Assembly: GCF_001040705.1 (NCBI RefSeq)
Contig: NZ_CVQP01000008.1
Span: 366,209 to 430,208 of the forward strand
Origin: Rhodococcus sp. RD6.2
GTDB lineage: Bacteria; Actinomycetota; Actinomycetes; Mycobacteriales; Mycobacteriaceae
Reading direction: 5' to 3'
Length of the DNA: 64,000 nt
The position numbers and the translations under genes were made by a program. The notes beneath the pieces were generated by a model. The model saw only the letters and a list, made by a program, of their open reading frames with translations, was not told the origin of the DNA and made no database searches. Each line of letters starts with the position of its first letter. Position 1 is the stretch's first letter. Below are positions 1,105-27,944 of the stretch, piece by piece.

Positions 1105-1154
1105 GATATGAACTCCCGAATGGGTCGGTGCAGCCTGGTGTACCGGACTCCCCC

Positions 1155-1177
1155 ACACTACGACCGACCCCCGACAG
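1155..1177 (-). promoter_or_regulatory. RecA-NDp/PafBC-type DNA-damage promoter upstream of the DinB-fold gene
   Basis: On the minus strand CTGTCGGGG (1169-1177) is followed by exactly 8 nt (1161-1168) and then TAGTGT (1155-1160). This fits the mycobacterial RecA-NDp consensus tTGTCRgtg-N8-TAnnnT, the LexA-independent damage promoter later linked to PafBC. The surrounding 20 bp (1163-1182) recur with one change in front of the YcaQ-like gene. Initiation about 7 nt downstream would leave a leader of roughly 45 nt containing the GGGAG site. Function is inferred from consensus match and spacing. Confidence 0.65.
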
Positions 1178-1186
1178 GTTTCTCGT

Positions 1187-2695
1187 TCAGCCGAGCGCCT
1201 CCCGCGCCGCGTCGAGCGCGCGCTCGCGATCCTGAGGGACGAGTCCGATCCGGGTTCGCCGATCGAGCAGGTCGTCGACGTCGAGCGCACCCTCGTGCGT
1301 GACCGCGAAGGCGAGTTCGGCACGGGTGACGTCGATTCCGTCGGCCACCGCCACGAGCTCCCCCGACTTCGCGACCGCCGCGGATTCACCGCCGTAGCGG
1401 GCACGAAGCGACTGCGGCAGTCCGGCGGGCTCGGGACGGGTTCCTGCGCCGACGAGCGGCAGGTTGGTCGTGACGCACGGTCCCGAGGTGAGTCCGCCGA
1501 CCCGGACTGCGGTGTCGACCGCATCCTGGGCCATCTTCCGGTAGGTGGTCAGTTTGCCTCCCACGACACTGATGACCCCCCGGTCCGACGTGAGTACCGC
1601 GTGATTGCGGGACAGGTCGGCGGTGGCGCCGTCGCCGGTGTCGAGAAGCGGGCGCAGGCCCGCGTAGGTGGCGAGGACGTCGGTGCGGGTCAGTTCGACA
1701 CCGAGCGCGGTGTTGACGGTCGTCAACAGGAAGTCGATCTCCGACTCGGTGGCAACCGGGACGTCGGGAATCTCCCCGGGCGCCGCTTCGTCCGTCAGCC
1801 CCAGGTAGACGCGACCCAACTGCGCGGGCAGTGCGAACACGAAGCGGTTCGTCTCCCCCGGGATCGGGACGGTGAGCGCCGCCCGGGGATTGCCGAGCCG
1901 CTCCGCGTCCAGGACCAGGTGGGTACCGCGGCTCGGCTTGAGCGCGATGCTCGGGTCGACCTGCCCGGCCCACACGCCGGACGCGTTCACCACGGCGCGG
2001 GGCCGCACGGTGGTCTCCTCGCCCGTCAACTCGTCCCGCAGCCGCACGGAGTCTCCGGTCACGTCGTAGGCCCCGACCCTGGTGAGGATGCGCGCGCCGT
2101 GCCCGGCCGCGGTCCGCGCGATCGCGACTACGAGCCGCGCGTCGTCGATCAACTGTCCGTCGTACGCGAGCAGCCCCCCGCGCAGACCGTCGCGCCGCAC
2201 GGCGGGTGCGAGGTCGATCGTTTCCGCGGCGCCGATCCGGCGAGATCGCGGCAGCACCGACGACGAGGTCCGCGCCGTCGCACGCAACGCGTCCCCTGCG
2301 AGGAAACCCGTTCGCACCAGAGCCTTTTCGAATCGTCCGACGGACGGCAGCAGCGGAACCAGCTGCGGTAGGGCGCGGATGAGGTGGGGCGCGGTTCGCG
2401 TCATGAGGATGCCGCGTTCGACGGCGCTCTCCCGGGCGATGCCGACGTTCCCGGTTGCGAGGTAGCGCAGACCGCCGTGCGCCAGTTTGGAACTCCACCG
2501 GCTGGTGCCGAACGCCAGATCACGGCGCTCGACGAGAACCGTCCGCAGGCCACGGGACGCGGCGTCGAGTGCCGCTCCGACTCCGGTGATACCGCCGCCG
2601 ATCACCAGGACGTCGATCGGATCTCCGTCTCCGAGACCGGACAGTTCCCGGGCGCGGCGGGTGGCGTCGAGCGCGGTCGGGGCGTGGGGGTGCAC
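1187..2695 (-). CDS. glpD: glycerol-3-phosphate dehydrogenase (FAD, respiratory)
   Basis: 502 residues, a normal GlpD length. The FAD-binding dinucleotide fold is at residues 29-40 (VLVIGGGITGVG), followed by the GlpD signature FGTSRWSSKLAHGGLRYL near 62-80. The C-terminal helical DAO_C domain follows. The enzyme oxidises sn-glycerol 3-phosphate to DHAP at the membrane and passes electrons to quinone. The start is GTG with GAGGAG 7 nt upstream, 17 bp behind a TetR gene on the same strand, so the two are probably cotranscribed. The head-to-head partner genes encode an alkyl-DHAP-synthase-like flavoprotein and a lipid kinase. The order matches M. tuberculosis glpD1 (Rv2249c). Confidence 0.95.
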   Translation of the reverse strand: MHPHAPTALDATRRARELSGLGDGDPIDVLVIGGGITGVGAALDAASRGLRTVLVERRDLAFGTSRWSSKLAHGGLRYLATGNVGIARESAVERGILMTRTAPHLIRALPQLVPLLPSVGRFEKALVRTGFLAGDALRATARTSSSVLPRSRRIGAAETIDLAPAVRRDGLRGGLLAYDGQLIDDARLVVAIARTAAGHGARILTRVGAYDVTGDSVRLRDELTGEETTVRPRAVVNASGVWAGQVDPSIALKPSRGTHLVLDAERLGNPRAALTVPIPGETNRFVFALPAQLGRVYLGLTDEAAPGEIPDVPVATESEIDFLLTTVNTALGVELTRTDVLATYAGLRPLLDTGDGATADLSRNHAVLTSDRGVISVVGGKLTTYRKMAQDAVDTAVRVGGLTSGPCVTTNLPLVGAGTRPEPAGLPQSLRARYGGESAAVAKSGELVAVADGIDVTRAELAFAVTHEGALDVDDLLDRRTRIGLVPQDRERALDAAREALG

Positions 2696-2712
2696 GGTGA
2701 GCTCCTCGTGGG

Positions 2713-3318
2713 TCAGGCGGACGGGGTCAGGTAGGCGTCGACGGCGATGACGAACTCCACGAGGAGCGCCTCCGGCGCGACGAGTTCGGCGACCATTCCG
2801 GCGGACTGCACCGCGGACTGCATCATGAGCAGCACCGTTGCGCCGATCGCGACGGGGTCGCCGACGCGGATCGATCCGTCGGCCTGGCCCGCTTCGACAG
2901 CGGGCACCAGGTGGTCGAGGATCGCATGCTGGCTCGCACCGAGCCGGCCGACGATGTAGGTGACGAGGAGTTCGGGGTCCGATCGCAGGATCTTCTCGAA
3001 CAGCGGGTGGGTGCGGACGGTCTCCGACATTCCCGCGACCACCGCAACCAACTGGGCGCGGGCACTGCCTCCGCCGGACGGCTGCGGCATCGCCGTACCG
3101 ATCTCCCGGGTGAGGAGGTCGGCGACGATCGCCCCGGTATCGGGCCAGCGCCGATACACCGTCGGCCTGCTGACTCCGGCCCGACGCGCGATCTCGGCGA
3201 GGGTGGTGCGCCGCACACCGAACTCGACGACACAGGTGCGCGCCGCGTCGAGGATCTGGTCGTCGACGCTGCGCGCGGAGCTCTGCGCCCCGGAGGATTC
3301 TTCGTTACGGATAGACAT
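2713..3318 (-). CDS. TetR-family regulator of the glpD/flavoprotein locus
   Basis: 201 residues. The N-terminal helix-turn-helix is clear: QILDAARTCVVEFGVRRTT followed by LAEIARRAGVSRPTVYRRW at about residues 40-60. The C-terminal helical half is the ligand and dimer domain; its ligand is unknown, a lipid or acyl-CoA being plausible from context. The ATG at 3318 is chosen because it faces the divergent flavoprotein gene across only 20 bp; an upstream extension would overlap that gene. It corresponds to Rv2250c. The short shared gap holds two direct TGTAA half-sites (in GTGTAAGACTGTAACGC), a likely place for autoregulation of both directions. Confidence 0.9.
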   Translation of the reverse strand: MSIRNEESSGAQSSARSVDDQILDAARTCVVEFGVRRTTLAEIARRAGVSRPTVYRRWPDTGAIVADLLTREIGTAMPQPSGGGSARAQLVAVVAGMSETVRTHPLFEKILRSDPELLVTYIVGRLGASQHAILDHLVPAVEAGQADGSIRVGDPVAIGATVLLMMQSAVQSAGMVAELVAPEALLVEFVIAVDAYLTPSA

Positions 3319-26692: not shown

Positions 26693-27907
26693 TCACACCG
26701 CAGCAGCGAGGTCCTCGGCGAGGTCGCCGCGATCCCCGACCACGATGTCGGACAGGCCGAGCCACGTTGCCATCGAACGCAATTCGACGGCAAGGGTCTC
26801 GGCGACCTCGCCGCGGTGGTGTCCGTCCTCGGTGAAGGCAGCGGGTACGCGGAGTGCGTTGGCGGCGCGGTCGGCCTTGATGTCGACCCGTCCGACGAGT
26901 TCGCCGCGGTGCAGGAACGGGAAGACGTAGTACCCGTGCACCCGCTTGTGCGCGGGGGTGTAGATCTCGATGCGGTACCGGAACCCGAAGACACGTTCGG
27001 TGCGCGGCCGGAAGAACACCAGCGGGTCGAACGGGCACAGCAGCGCGGTGCCCGCCGCGCGGCGCGGAACCCGGGCGCCCGCGGACAGGTAGGCGGGCGC
27101 GTCCCACCCGCGCACCGTCACGGGAACGAGTGCGCCGTCGTCAACGAGGTCGGCGATCGCAGGAGTCGCCTGAGCGACGGAAAGCCGGTGGTAGTCGCGC
27201 AGATCCGCGGCGGTGGCGACTCCGAGCGCGCGGCCCGCCCGGCGGATCAGTTCGCGGATGGCGTCCGGCTCGGGGATGTCACGGGCGGCGACCCCGGCGG
27301 GCAGGACACGATCGGCGAGGTCGTAATGGCGAACGAAGCCCACGCGGCGGTCGACCGACAACGCCCCCGAGGCGAAGAGTTGTTCGCAGATCACCTTCGT
27401 GTCGCTGCGCCCCCACCACGGACCACGTTTACCGGTGGAGTCGATCTGCAGGTGCCGTTCCACCTCGCCCGCCGACGACGGCCCGACTTCGGTCACGACG
27501 TCGAGCACGTCCTTGCCGAGGGTGGGGTTGCGGTCGAGGACGCGTCGCTCCCCCGCCCAGCGGCCGCCCTCGTATCGCCGCATCCTCCACCGCATCAACG
27601 GCCAGTCCGCGACGGGGATCAGCGCGGCCTCGTGGGCCCAGTACTCGACCAGGGCACGGGGTTTCGTCGAGGAATCCCGCCAGGCCGCGGCGTCGAGGAG
27701 GTCGCGGTCGTAGCCACCGATCCGACTGAAGACCGGCATGTAGTGCGCACGGACGGCGACCGACACCGAATCGATCTGGAGCAGACCGGTCCGGTCGACG
27801 GTCGCGAGCACTCGCCGCCTCGTTGCGGATGACGCGGGTCGACGGTCGGTGAACCCCTGTGCGGCGACCGCGGCGCGCCTCGCCGCCGCAGCGGTCATCT
27901 CCAGCAT
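26693..27907 (-). CDS. YcaQ/AlkZ-like winged-helix DNA glycosylase family protein (HTH_42)
   Basis: 404 residues of the PF06224 type: LLQIDSVSVAVRAHYMPVFSRIGGYDRDLLD near residues 42-72, the segment YWAHEAALIPVADWPLMRWRM near 88-108, and CPFDPLVFFRPRTERVFGFRYRIEIYTP near 290-318. The paired QxD/Q-type catalytic residues of AlkZ-YcaQ enzymes fall in the LLQIDS stretch. E. coli YcaQ unhooks DNA interstrand crosslinks; AlkZ protects from azinomycin. The promoter just upstream is a RecA-NDp-type damage promoter with a leaderless start, which supports a repair role. Confidence 0.85.
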   Translation of the reverse strand: MLEMTAAAARRAAVAAQGFTDRRPASSATRRRVLATVDRTGLLQIDSVSVAVRAHYMPVFSRIGGYDRDLLDAAAWRDSSTKPRALVEYWAHEAALIPVADWPLMRWRMRRYEGGRWAGERRVLDRNPTLGKDVLDVVTEVGPSSAGEVERHLQIDSTGKRGPWWGRSDTKVICEQLFASGALSVDRRVGFVRHYDLADRVLPAGVAARDIPEPDAIRELIRRAGRALGVATAADLRDYHRLSVAQATPAIADLVDDGALVPVTVRGWDAPAYLSAGARVPRRAAGTALLCPFDPLVFFRPRTERVFGFRYRIEIYTPAHKRVHGYYVFPFLHRGELVGRVDIKADRAANALRVPAAFTEDGHHRGEVAETLAVELRSMATWLGLSDIVVGDRGDLAEDLAAAV

Positions 27908-27913
27908 GGGTCC

Positions 27914-27936
27914 AGGGTGCCACCGACCACCGACAG
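27914..27936 (-). promoter_or_regulatory. RecA-NDp/PafBC-type promoter of the YcaQ-like gene
   Basis: Minus strand: CTGTCGGTG (27928-27936), exactly 8 nt, then CACCCT (27914-27919) and 6 nt to the ATG at 27907. The upstream half matches tTGTCRgtg at 8 of 9 positions; the -10 keeps the A and final T of TAnnnT but not the first T. The larger 20-bp block (27922-27941) differs from 1163-1182 at one position. Confidence 0.65.
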
Positions 27937-27944
27937 GTTTCGGG

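Follow-up and report, generated by a model that had tools for sequence, protein, structure and literature searches.

A candidate PafBC-type damage promoter before a mycothiol-S-transferase gene of Rhodococcus sp. RD6.2, and the palindrome found in its place in relatives

A short minus-strand element in Rhodococcus sp. RD6.2 is, in our judgment, probably a working PafBC-type promoter of a gene for a predicted mycothiol-S-transferase, and its -26 element would have been formed from the proximal half-site of a palindrome after the loss of a putative WYL-domain activator. The main features are collected in Table 1; the window is the whole stretch of DNA analysed, 64,000 nucleotides in length.

Table 1. 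Features of the window relevant to the transferase promoter and its partner
Feature	Position	Strand	Details
PafBC/RecA-NDp-type promoter core	1155..1176	-	TGTCGG 1171-1176 (-26), 10 nt, TAGTGT 1155-1160 (-10)
Predicted transcription start	1148	-	placed 28 nt beyond motif start, on the model of leaderless sites
Shine-Dalgarno-like GGGAG	1113..1117	-	8 nt before ATG; from sequence
Mycothiol-S-transferase family protein (DUF664/MST, DinB fold), 182 aa	556..1104	-	PF04978 E 8.4e-38, PF12867 E 4.8e-7
Glycerol-3-phosphate dehydrogenase-like gene (glpD)	1187..2695	-	best NCBIfam match below the model's cut-off
PafBC-type promoter of the YcaQ-like gene	27914..27935	-	TGTCGG 27930-27935, TGG 27920-27922 (extended -10), CACCCT 27914-27919
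AlkZ/YcaQ-like DNA glycosylase	26693..27907	-	PF06224 E 1.6e-68; ATG 28 nt from motif start

Read on the minus strand from 1176 to 1155, the letters of the core are TGTCGGGGGTCGGTCGTAGTGT, an exact match to TGTCR-N11-TAnnnT and the sole one in the window. The P1/RecA-NDp consensus is described as tTGTCRgtg, a spacer of 8 nt, and TannnT (PMC5656591). Compared with tTGTCRgtg, the letters cTGTCGGGG agree at all capital positions and depart from two of the four lower-case ones; by the published counting a spacer of 8 nt and a TAnnnT hexamer follow. Because 0.59 matches are expected in the window by chance (one or more arose in 43 of 100 shuffles), the match by itself proves nothing, and its significance comes from a genome-wide spacing test and from the comparison with relatives. 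The motif starts 72 nt before the ATG of the DinB-fold gene. From this distance and the mode of d = 28-30 among the sites of the genome, the predicted transcription start would leave an untranslated leader of about 44 nt.

The product of the gene resembles the mycothiol-S-transferases of family PF04978 by its family match (130.6 bits, the Pfam cut-off being 27) and by the residues H59, H154, and H157, which are invariant in 24 aligned sequences. The predicted DinB fold is that of the Pfam families, and a sequence search matched no solved structure to the protein.

The element is not scattered at random over the genome. In the 5.57 Mb of the genome, TGTCGG and TAnnnT stand at a 10-nt gap 54 times, compared with 4, 4, 5, 3, 3, 3, 6, 8, 4, and 6 times at the other gaps (5-9 and 11-15 nt; mean 4.6, Poisson p ~3e-38), and no other of the eleven spacings shows a peak. 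Taken over all eleven gaps, the true pattern has 100 matches and the backwards pattern 81 (about 7 per gap if even), so that only the spacing peak counts. Since 54 stands far above both the other gaps and the backwards pattern, roughly nine in ten sites of the form TGTCGG-N10-TAnnnT exceed chance, about 9% being attributable to it. The broader TGTCR-N11-TAnnnT has 81 matches in the whole genome, against 42 for its backwards version. The control hexamer TGTCCG is barely enriched at the same gap (6 versus a mean of 2.9, p 0.07; 35 matches in total, with 85 in the reversed control), whereas TGTCGG is strongly enriched, which argues that in the window genome a G rather than a C at the differing base matters.

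A plausible ORF start was found within 160 nt of 49 of the 54 TGTCGG sites, and at 29 of them the start codon lies 27-31 nt from the motif start; ORFs were picked by GC content by codon position instead of with a gene finder, preference being given to a start codon 26-33 nt away where the ORF offered one. A start codon at 27-31 nt coincides with the expected transcript start, and such genes would therefore have leaderless mRNAs. The DinB-fold gene and recA, the latter 91 nt from its motif, are not of this kind.

We inspected 61 of the 81 TGTCR sites, including all 54 with TGTCGG, and assigned an ORF to 56; 30 of these ORFs were scanned against Pfam, and since they were chosen by eye the sample leans to recognisable genes. 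Eighteen of the 30 look like replication or repair proteins, the '-like' names being our reading of Pfam matches: RecA, LexA, UvrA, UvrB, PolA, LigA, and DnaX (named from Pfam and by recognition), a UvrD-type helicase, Mfd-like (UvrB interaction domain), RadA-like, and SbcD-like proteins, two Exo_endo_phos nucleases, an RNase H, a PD-(D/E)XK nuclease, a DnaQ-type exonuclease, an AAA helicase-like protein behind a TGTCGC site, and a second AlkZ-like protein. The remaining twelve comprise three Glyoxalase_6 proteins, an MDMPI_N protein of the DinB fold, DUF222, Imm51, TY-Chap, AraC-type, YdjM, and DUF6301 proteins, a TnpB-like transposase, and one protein without a Pfam match. The genes pafA, pafB, and pafC stand in this order at about 535.6-538.9 kb of contig G000:C5 (L119), with the expected domains in Pfam: Pup_ligase (PF03136) in pafA, WYL and WCX in pafB, and HTH_PafC, WYL, and WCX in pafC. 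The PafBC regulon is described as large and rich in repair genes (PMC8223512), and the predicted site-linked set is what such a regulon should look like. The proposal of a PafBC-type promoter, made in an earlier sequence-only reading of the window, is thus supported by the spacing peak, by the repair genes behind the sites, and by the presence of pafA-pafB-pafC.

Some individual members of the set deserve mention. The three Glyoxalase_6 genes and the MDMPI_N gene with PafBC-type sites (L141, L142, L124, and L015) make small-molecule detoxification seem a regular part of the regulon. At two TnpB/IS605 OrfB-like genes (L014:339-1493, minus strand, and L028:1530-2684, plus strand), which both match PF07282 and are alike at 334 of 385 residues, the gene start is 29 nt from the start of a PafBC-type motif, which suggests damage-induced, leaderless transposon nucleases. 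The second AlkZ-like glycosylase gene (L009:373-1494, minus strand; PF06224) follows a TGTCGG-N10-TAnnnT site with its start 28 nt away.

The sequence-only reading had paired the transferase promoter with another inside the window, and that claim was borne out in part. The 20 bp at 1163-1182 and at 27922-27941 differ by one base, and a pair within 3 mismatches arose in none of 100 shuffles; both blocks lie upstream of minus-strand genes, the motif of the partner starting 28 nt before its gene, and Pfam agrees with the families named for the two genes, DinB-fold (PF04978 and PF12867) and YcaQ-like (PF06224). The further statement that both copies fit tTGTCRgtg-N8-TAnnnT holds at 1155-1176, for the core TGTCR-N11-TAnnnT, and fails at the partner, where the letters from 27935 to 27914 are TGTCGGTGGTCGGTGGCACCCT and the -10 hexamer is CACCCT, not TAnnnT. 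Since the R. triatomae orthologs retain only part of the likeness around TGTCGG, we give no extra meaning to the 20-bp likeness outside this hexamer.

The partner site is nevertheless real and represents another -10 type, CAnnnT behind TGn, as indicated by its enrichment and by its orthologs. For instance, TGTCGG-N7-TGnCAnnnT occurs 9 times at the native gap in the window genome compared with a mean of 1.6 at ten others (25 matches over all gaps, 18 in the reversed control). From 129 genomes with a YcaQ-like match, 29 of 30 loci taken were used, the exception being L230, where the contig starts within the gene. In all 29 orthologs examined, from six genera (g1, g16, g20, g22, g23, and g27), TGTCG-N11-CAnnnT is present, TG occupies the extended -10 position, and an in-frame start codon, ATG or GTG, lies 28-30 nt from the motif start; none of them has TA. 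The YcaQ-like gene is probably translated from a leaderless mRNA. The same TGTCGG-N7-TGnCAnnnT promoter type stands at about 1501 of L278, before a gene (1566-2882, plus strand) encoding WGR and ATP-dependent DNA ligase domains. In the open-access literature searched, no paper joining PafBC and YcaQ was found.

The comparison with relatives covered 251 genomes of the family, 84 of which gave a match to the transferase with E no higher than 1e-40; 83 promoters with upstream DNA were examined, the window's included, one locus that begins at a contig end (G227) being left out. A palindrome, ATTGMGGAC-N7-GTCCGCAAT, was found at the transferase promoter in 65 of the 83, a count that is partly circular because the consensus was read by eye from loci that partly belong to the 83. 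At least 13 of the 18 defined positions had to agree, and no promoter scored 12; this threshold, like the E-value cut for the regulator given below, was set after gaps in the data had been seen. By chance, 13 or more of 18 is reached at 8 of the ~64,000 window positions. In all 65 promoters TAnnnT stands exactly 6 nt beyond the palindrome, and this gap was not a selection criterion. In a pattern search of 13 genomes allowing at most one mismatch, the palindrome occurs at 23 places, compared with 22 in the reversed control, so that the argument rests on its fixed position; this search gave no match in the window genome or in R. triatomae. Since the two numbers are nearly equal and some matches are intragenic (L078), we confine the claim to the promoters of the transferase and of the WYL gene. 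Palindromes also lie near an epoxide-hydrolase gene (L086) and near a glyoxalase gene (L080), which are not claimed as targets.

The right half of the palindrome starts exactly where TGTCGG starts in the window, giving TGTCCG-N10-TAnnnT, and TGTCCG is present there in 30 of the 65 palindromic promoters. As TGTCCG is one base from TGTCGG, part of the likeness between the two elements would come from common descent. The exact TGTCR-N11-TAnnnT is found in 12 of the 18 promoters without the palindrome and in none of the 65 with it. The twelve span four genera, with eight in one (g22); the others are the window genome (G000), R. triatomae BKS 15-14 (G004), G189, and G037. Six promoters have neither motif (G218, G160, G026, G138, G126, and G088). 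The R. triatomae promoter differs from the window's at 3 of 22 core bases, and the agreement with this sister species is therefore weak evidence. The stop codon of glpD lies 10 nt from the -26 element in the window, 8 nt in R. triatomae, 62 nt in R. tukisamuensis, and, by eye, 52 nt in R. oryzae; the short distance in the window suggests that the DNA that once held the distal half-site is gone in its lineage.

The pattern search of 13 genomes also placed the palindrome before a gene encoding a protein with HTH_11, WYL, and WCX domains. It was found upstream of all 20 fetched orthologs, drawn from those among the matches listed, with scores of 14 to 18 of 18, and in 19 of the 20 it ends about 20 nt before the gene start, which suggests that the WYL regulator is self-regulated. 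The palindrome is thereby named as a probable operator for the WYL protein. By sequence, the nearest solved structures to this protein are 6sj9, named PafBC, and 9fnd and 7p5x, both named 'transcriptional regulator-like protein'. By eye, the WYL gene's own promoter (L250-L269) has mostly a TGn-type -10 with C or G for T, e.g., TGGCATCCT, resembling that of the YcaQ-like gene and differing from those of the transferase promoters. In eight genomes inspected by eye the WYL gene neighbours ABC-transporter, MFS, HxlR, beta-lactamase-like, or ksgA/ispE-like genes. In one genome (G001) an MDMPI_N gene of the DinB fold (L079:2-535, minus strand) stands directly behind it, which again ties WYL regulators to the DinB fold.

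The presence of the regulator follows the palindrome closely. Among the matches listed, the ortholog class ends at E 4.6e-125 and the next match has 3.6e-106; with a cut of 1e-110, an ortholog-level match is present in 66 of the 83 genomes. Again among the matches listed, 63 of the 65 palindrome genomes have the ortholog, the two exceptions being a 75% complete genome (G237) and one whose palindrome scores 13 of 18 (G178). All 12 genomes with the PafBC motif, the window's included, are without the ortholog among the matches listed (Fisher p 6e-11 for the PafBC motif versus absence of the WYL ortholog, relatedness being ignored). Among the six genomes with neither motif, three, all of genus g19, have the ortholog and three do not. 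The window genome holds several WYL proteins, without the ortholog linked to the palindrome.

Two of six g1 genomes and one of ten g10 genomes are of the PafBC type, the others in both genera having the palindrome. In a tree of transferase proteins (30 of the 83), the window genome and R. triatomae are joined with 100/100 support, and G189 stands elsewhere on a long branch; the tree needs two changes. In genera g22 and g26 no palindrome is present in our sample, so that a change there may have run in either direction; by eye, their transferase gene stands in another setting, behind a topA-like tail. These data are best read as a change of activator at the transferase gene, with PafBC taking the place of a dedicated WYL protein. 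Since most relatives carry a different operator at this promoter, PafBC control looks recent in the window lineage. An ABC exporter with a palindrome nearby in R. tukisamuensis (G005) was considered as a case of regulon-wide rewiring, but it does not amount to a second swap, because a PafBC-type site of its own is present in the window genome (L135, reverse position 1022) as well as in R. tukisamuensis (L082). Beside the latter site are a palindrome and a short ORF, by eye an epoxide-hydrolase remnant, with no Pfam match.

PafBC is reported to be switched on by single-stranded DNA and to let the sigma-A polymerase use a -26 element (PMC11804915). We suggest that, by the mechanism described for M. 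smegmatis, a build-up of single-stranded DNA would lead PafBC to let the housekeeping RNA polymerase use TGTCGG and TAGTGT as -26 and -10 elements, and that the transferase level would rise alongside repair and glyoxalase-type genes under the same promoter type; the enzyme would probably join electrophiles or alkylating agents to mycothiol. In relatives, the WYL protein may be an activator acting through the palindrome. After its loss the proximal half-site could have become the PafBC element, the distal half no longer being contained in the shorter interval between glpD and the promoter in the window lineage, and the transferase would have kept its genotoxic-stress induction while the activator changed. 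Because TGTCGG and the right half of the palindrome share their spacing to the -10, both activators are suggested to use the same slot. We therefore consider it somewhat better than an even chance that two WYL activators share the -26 slot of sigma-A promoters, a self-regulated homodimer on the palindrome and the PafBC heterodimer on TGTCGG, and that a single base change with loss of the distal half moves a promoter from one to the other, since TGTCCG and the PafBC element have identical spacing and differ in only one position. Two or more lineages, and probably three or four, would have made such a move, each having lost the private regulator.

The element might instead be a non-functional relic of the proximal half of the palindrome, with the gene now constitutive. 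Its homologous position, and the TGTCCG found there in nearly half of the palindromic promoters, would suit a relic, and the sister species has diverged too little for a test of decay. Decay should, however, often break the motif, whereas two thirds of the promoters without the palindrome, in four genera, keep it exactly, and in the window genome the palindromic hexamer is hardly enriched at the 10-nt gap while TGTCGG is strongly so; we regard a relic as unlikely. That the string is a chance resemblance to a promoter and has no role is very improbable: about one match per 64 kb is indeed expected at random, but this one lies a short distance before a gene, belongs to a class most of whose members exceed chance, and recurs before the same gene in other genera.

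It is also quite unlikely that a working element is read by ClgR or by another WYL protein (e.g., the paralog G000:C9:301797) rather than by PafBC. ClgR is reported to recognise the P1 motif, and the genome offers several WYL proteins; yet P1-driven transcription of recA in M. smegmatis is described in the same paper as falling without PafBC (PMC5656591), and the set of sites is large and repair-rich, as described for the PafBC regulon (PMC8223512). The reading that we prefer remains a PafBC-type promoter.

The sites of the window genome resemble the mycobacterial PafBC/RecA-NDp (P1) promoters in TGTCR, the 8-nt spacer, TAnnnT, the repair genes, and the pafA-pafB-pafC locus. Many of them are placed for leaderless mRNAs. 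Unlike the mycobacterial promoters, one subclass has TGn-CAnnnT, and unlike the mycobacterial set, the one described here includes a DUF664/MST gene that is under another operator in most relatives. The closest parallel for the palindrome is the dinS operon of M. smegmatis, where the WYL activator SiwR is described as controlling a DinB_2/DUF664 pair via a palindrome and the -26 region (PMC10693628). The two systems, compared by description, have in common a WYL activator (a putative one here), a DUF664/DinB-fold gene, a palindrome next to the -10, and a part played by the -26 region; the palindrome core here, GGAC-N7-GTCC, would span about -37 to -23 (inferred numbering). In contrast to SiwR/dinS, none of the neighbourhoods inspected has the transferase next to the WYL ortholog or shows a DinB_2 and DUF664 pair there, although G001 has the MDMPI_N gene of the DinB fold behind it.

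If the two activators do share a slot, the dedicated WYL protein would also work by sigma adaptation. The relatives present a repeated natural experiment, with the transferase under a seemingly dedicated WYL activator in most of them and under PafBC where this activator is gone. The findings tentatively place a so far unstudied mycothiol-S-transferase in the LexA-independent response of this Rhodococcus to DNA damage, its gene being one that seems to move into the PafBC regulon.
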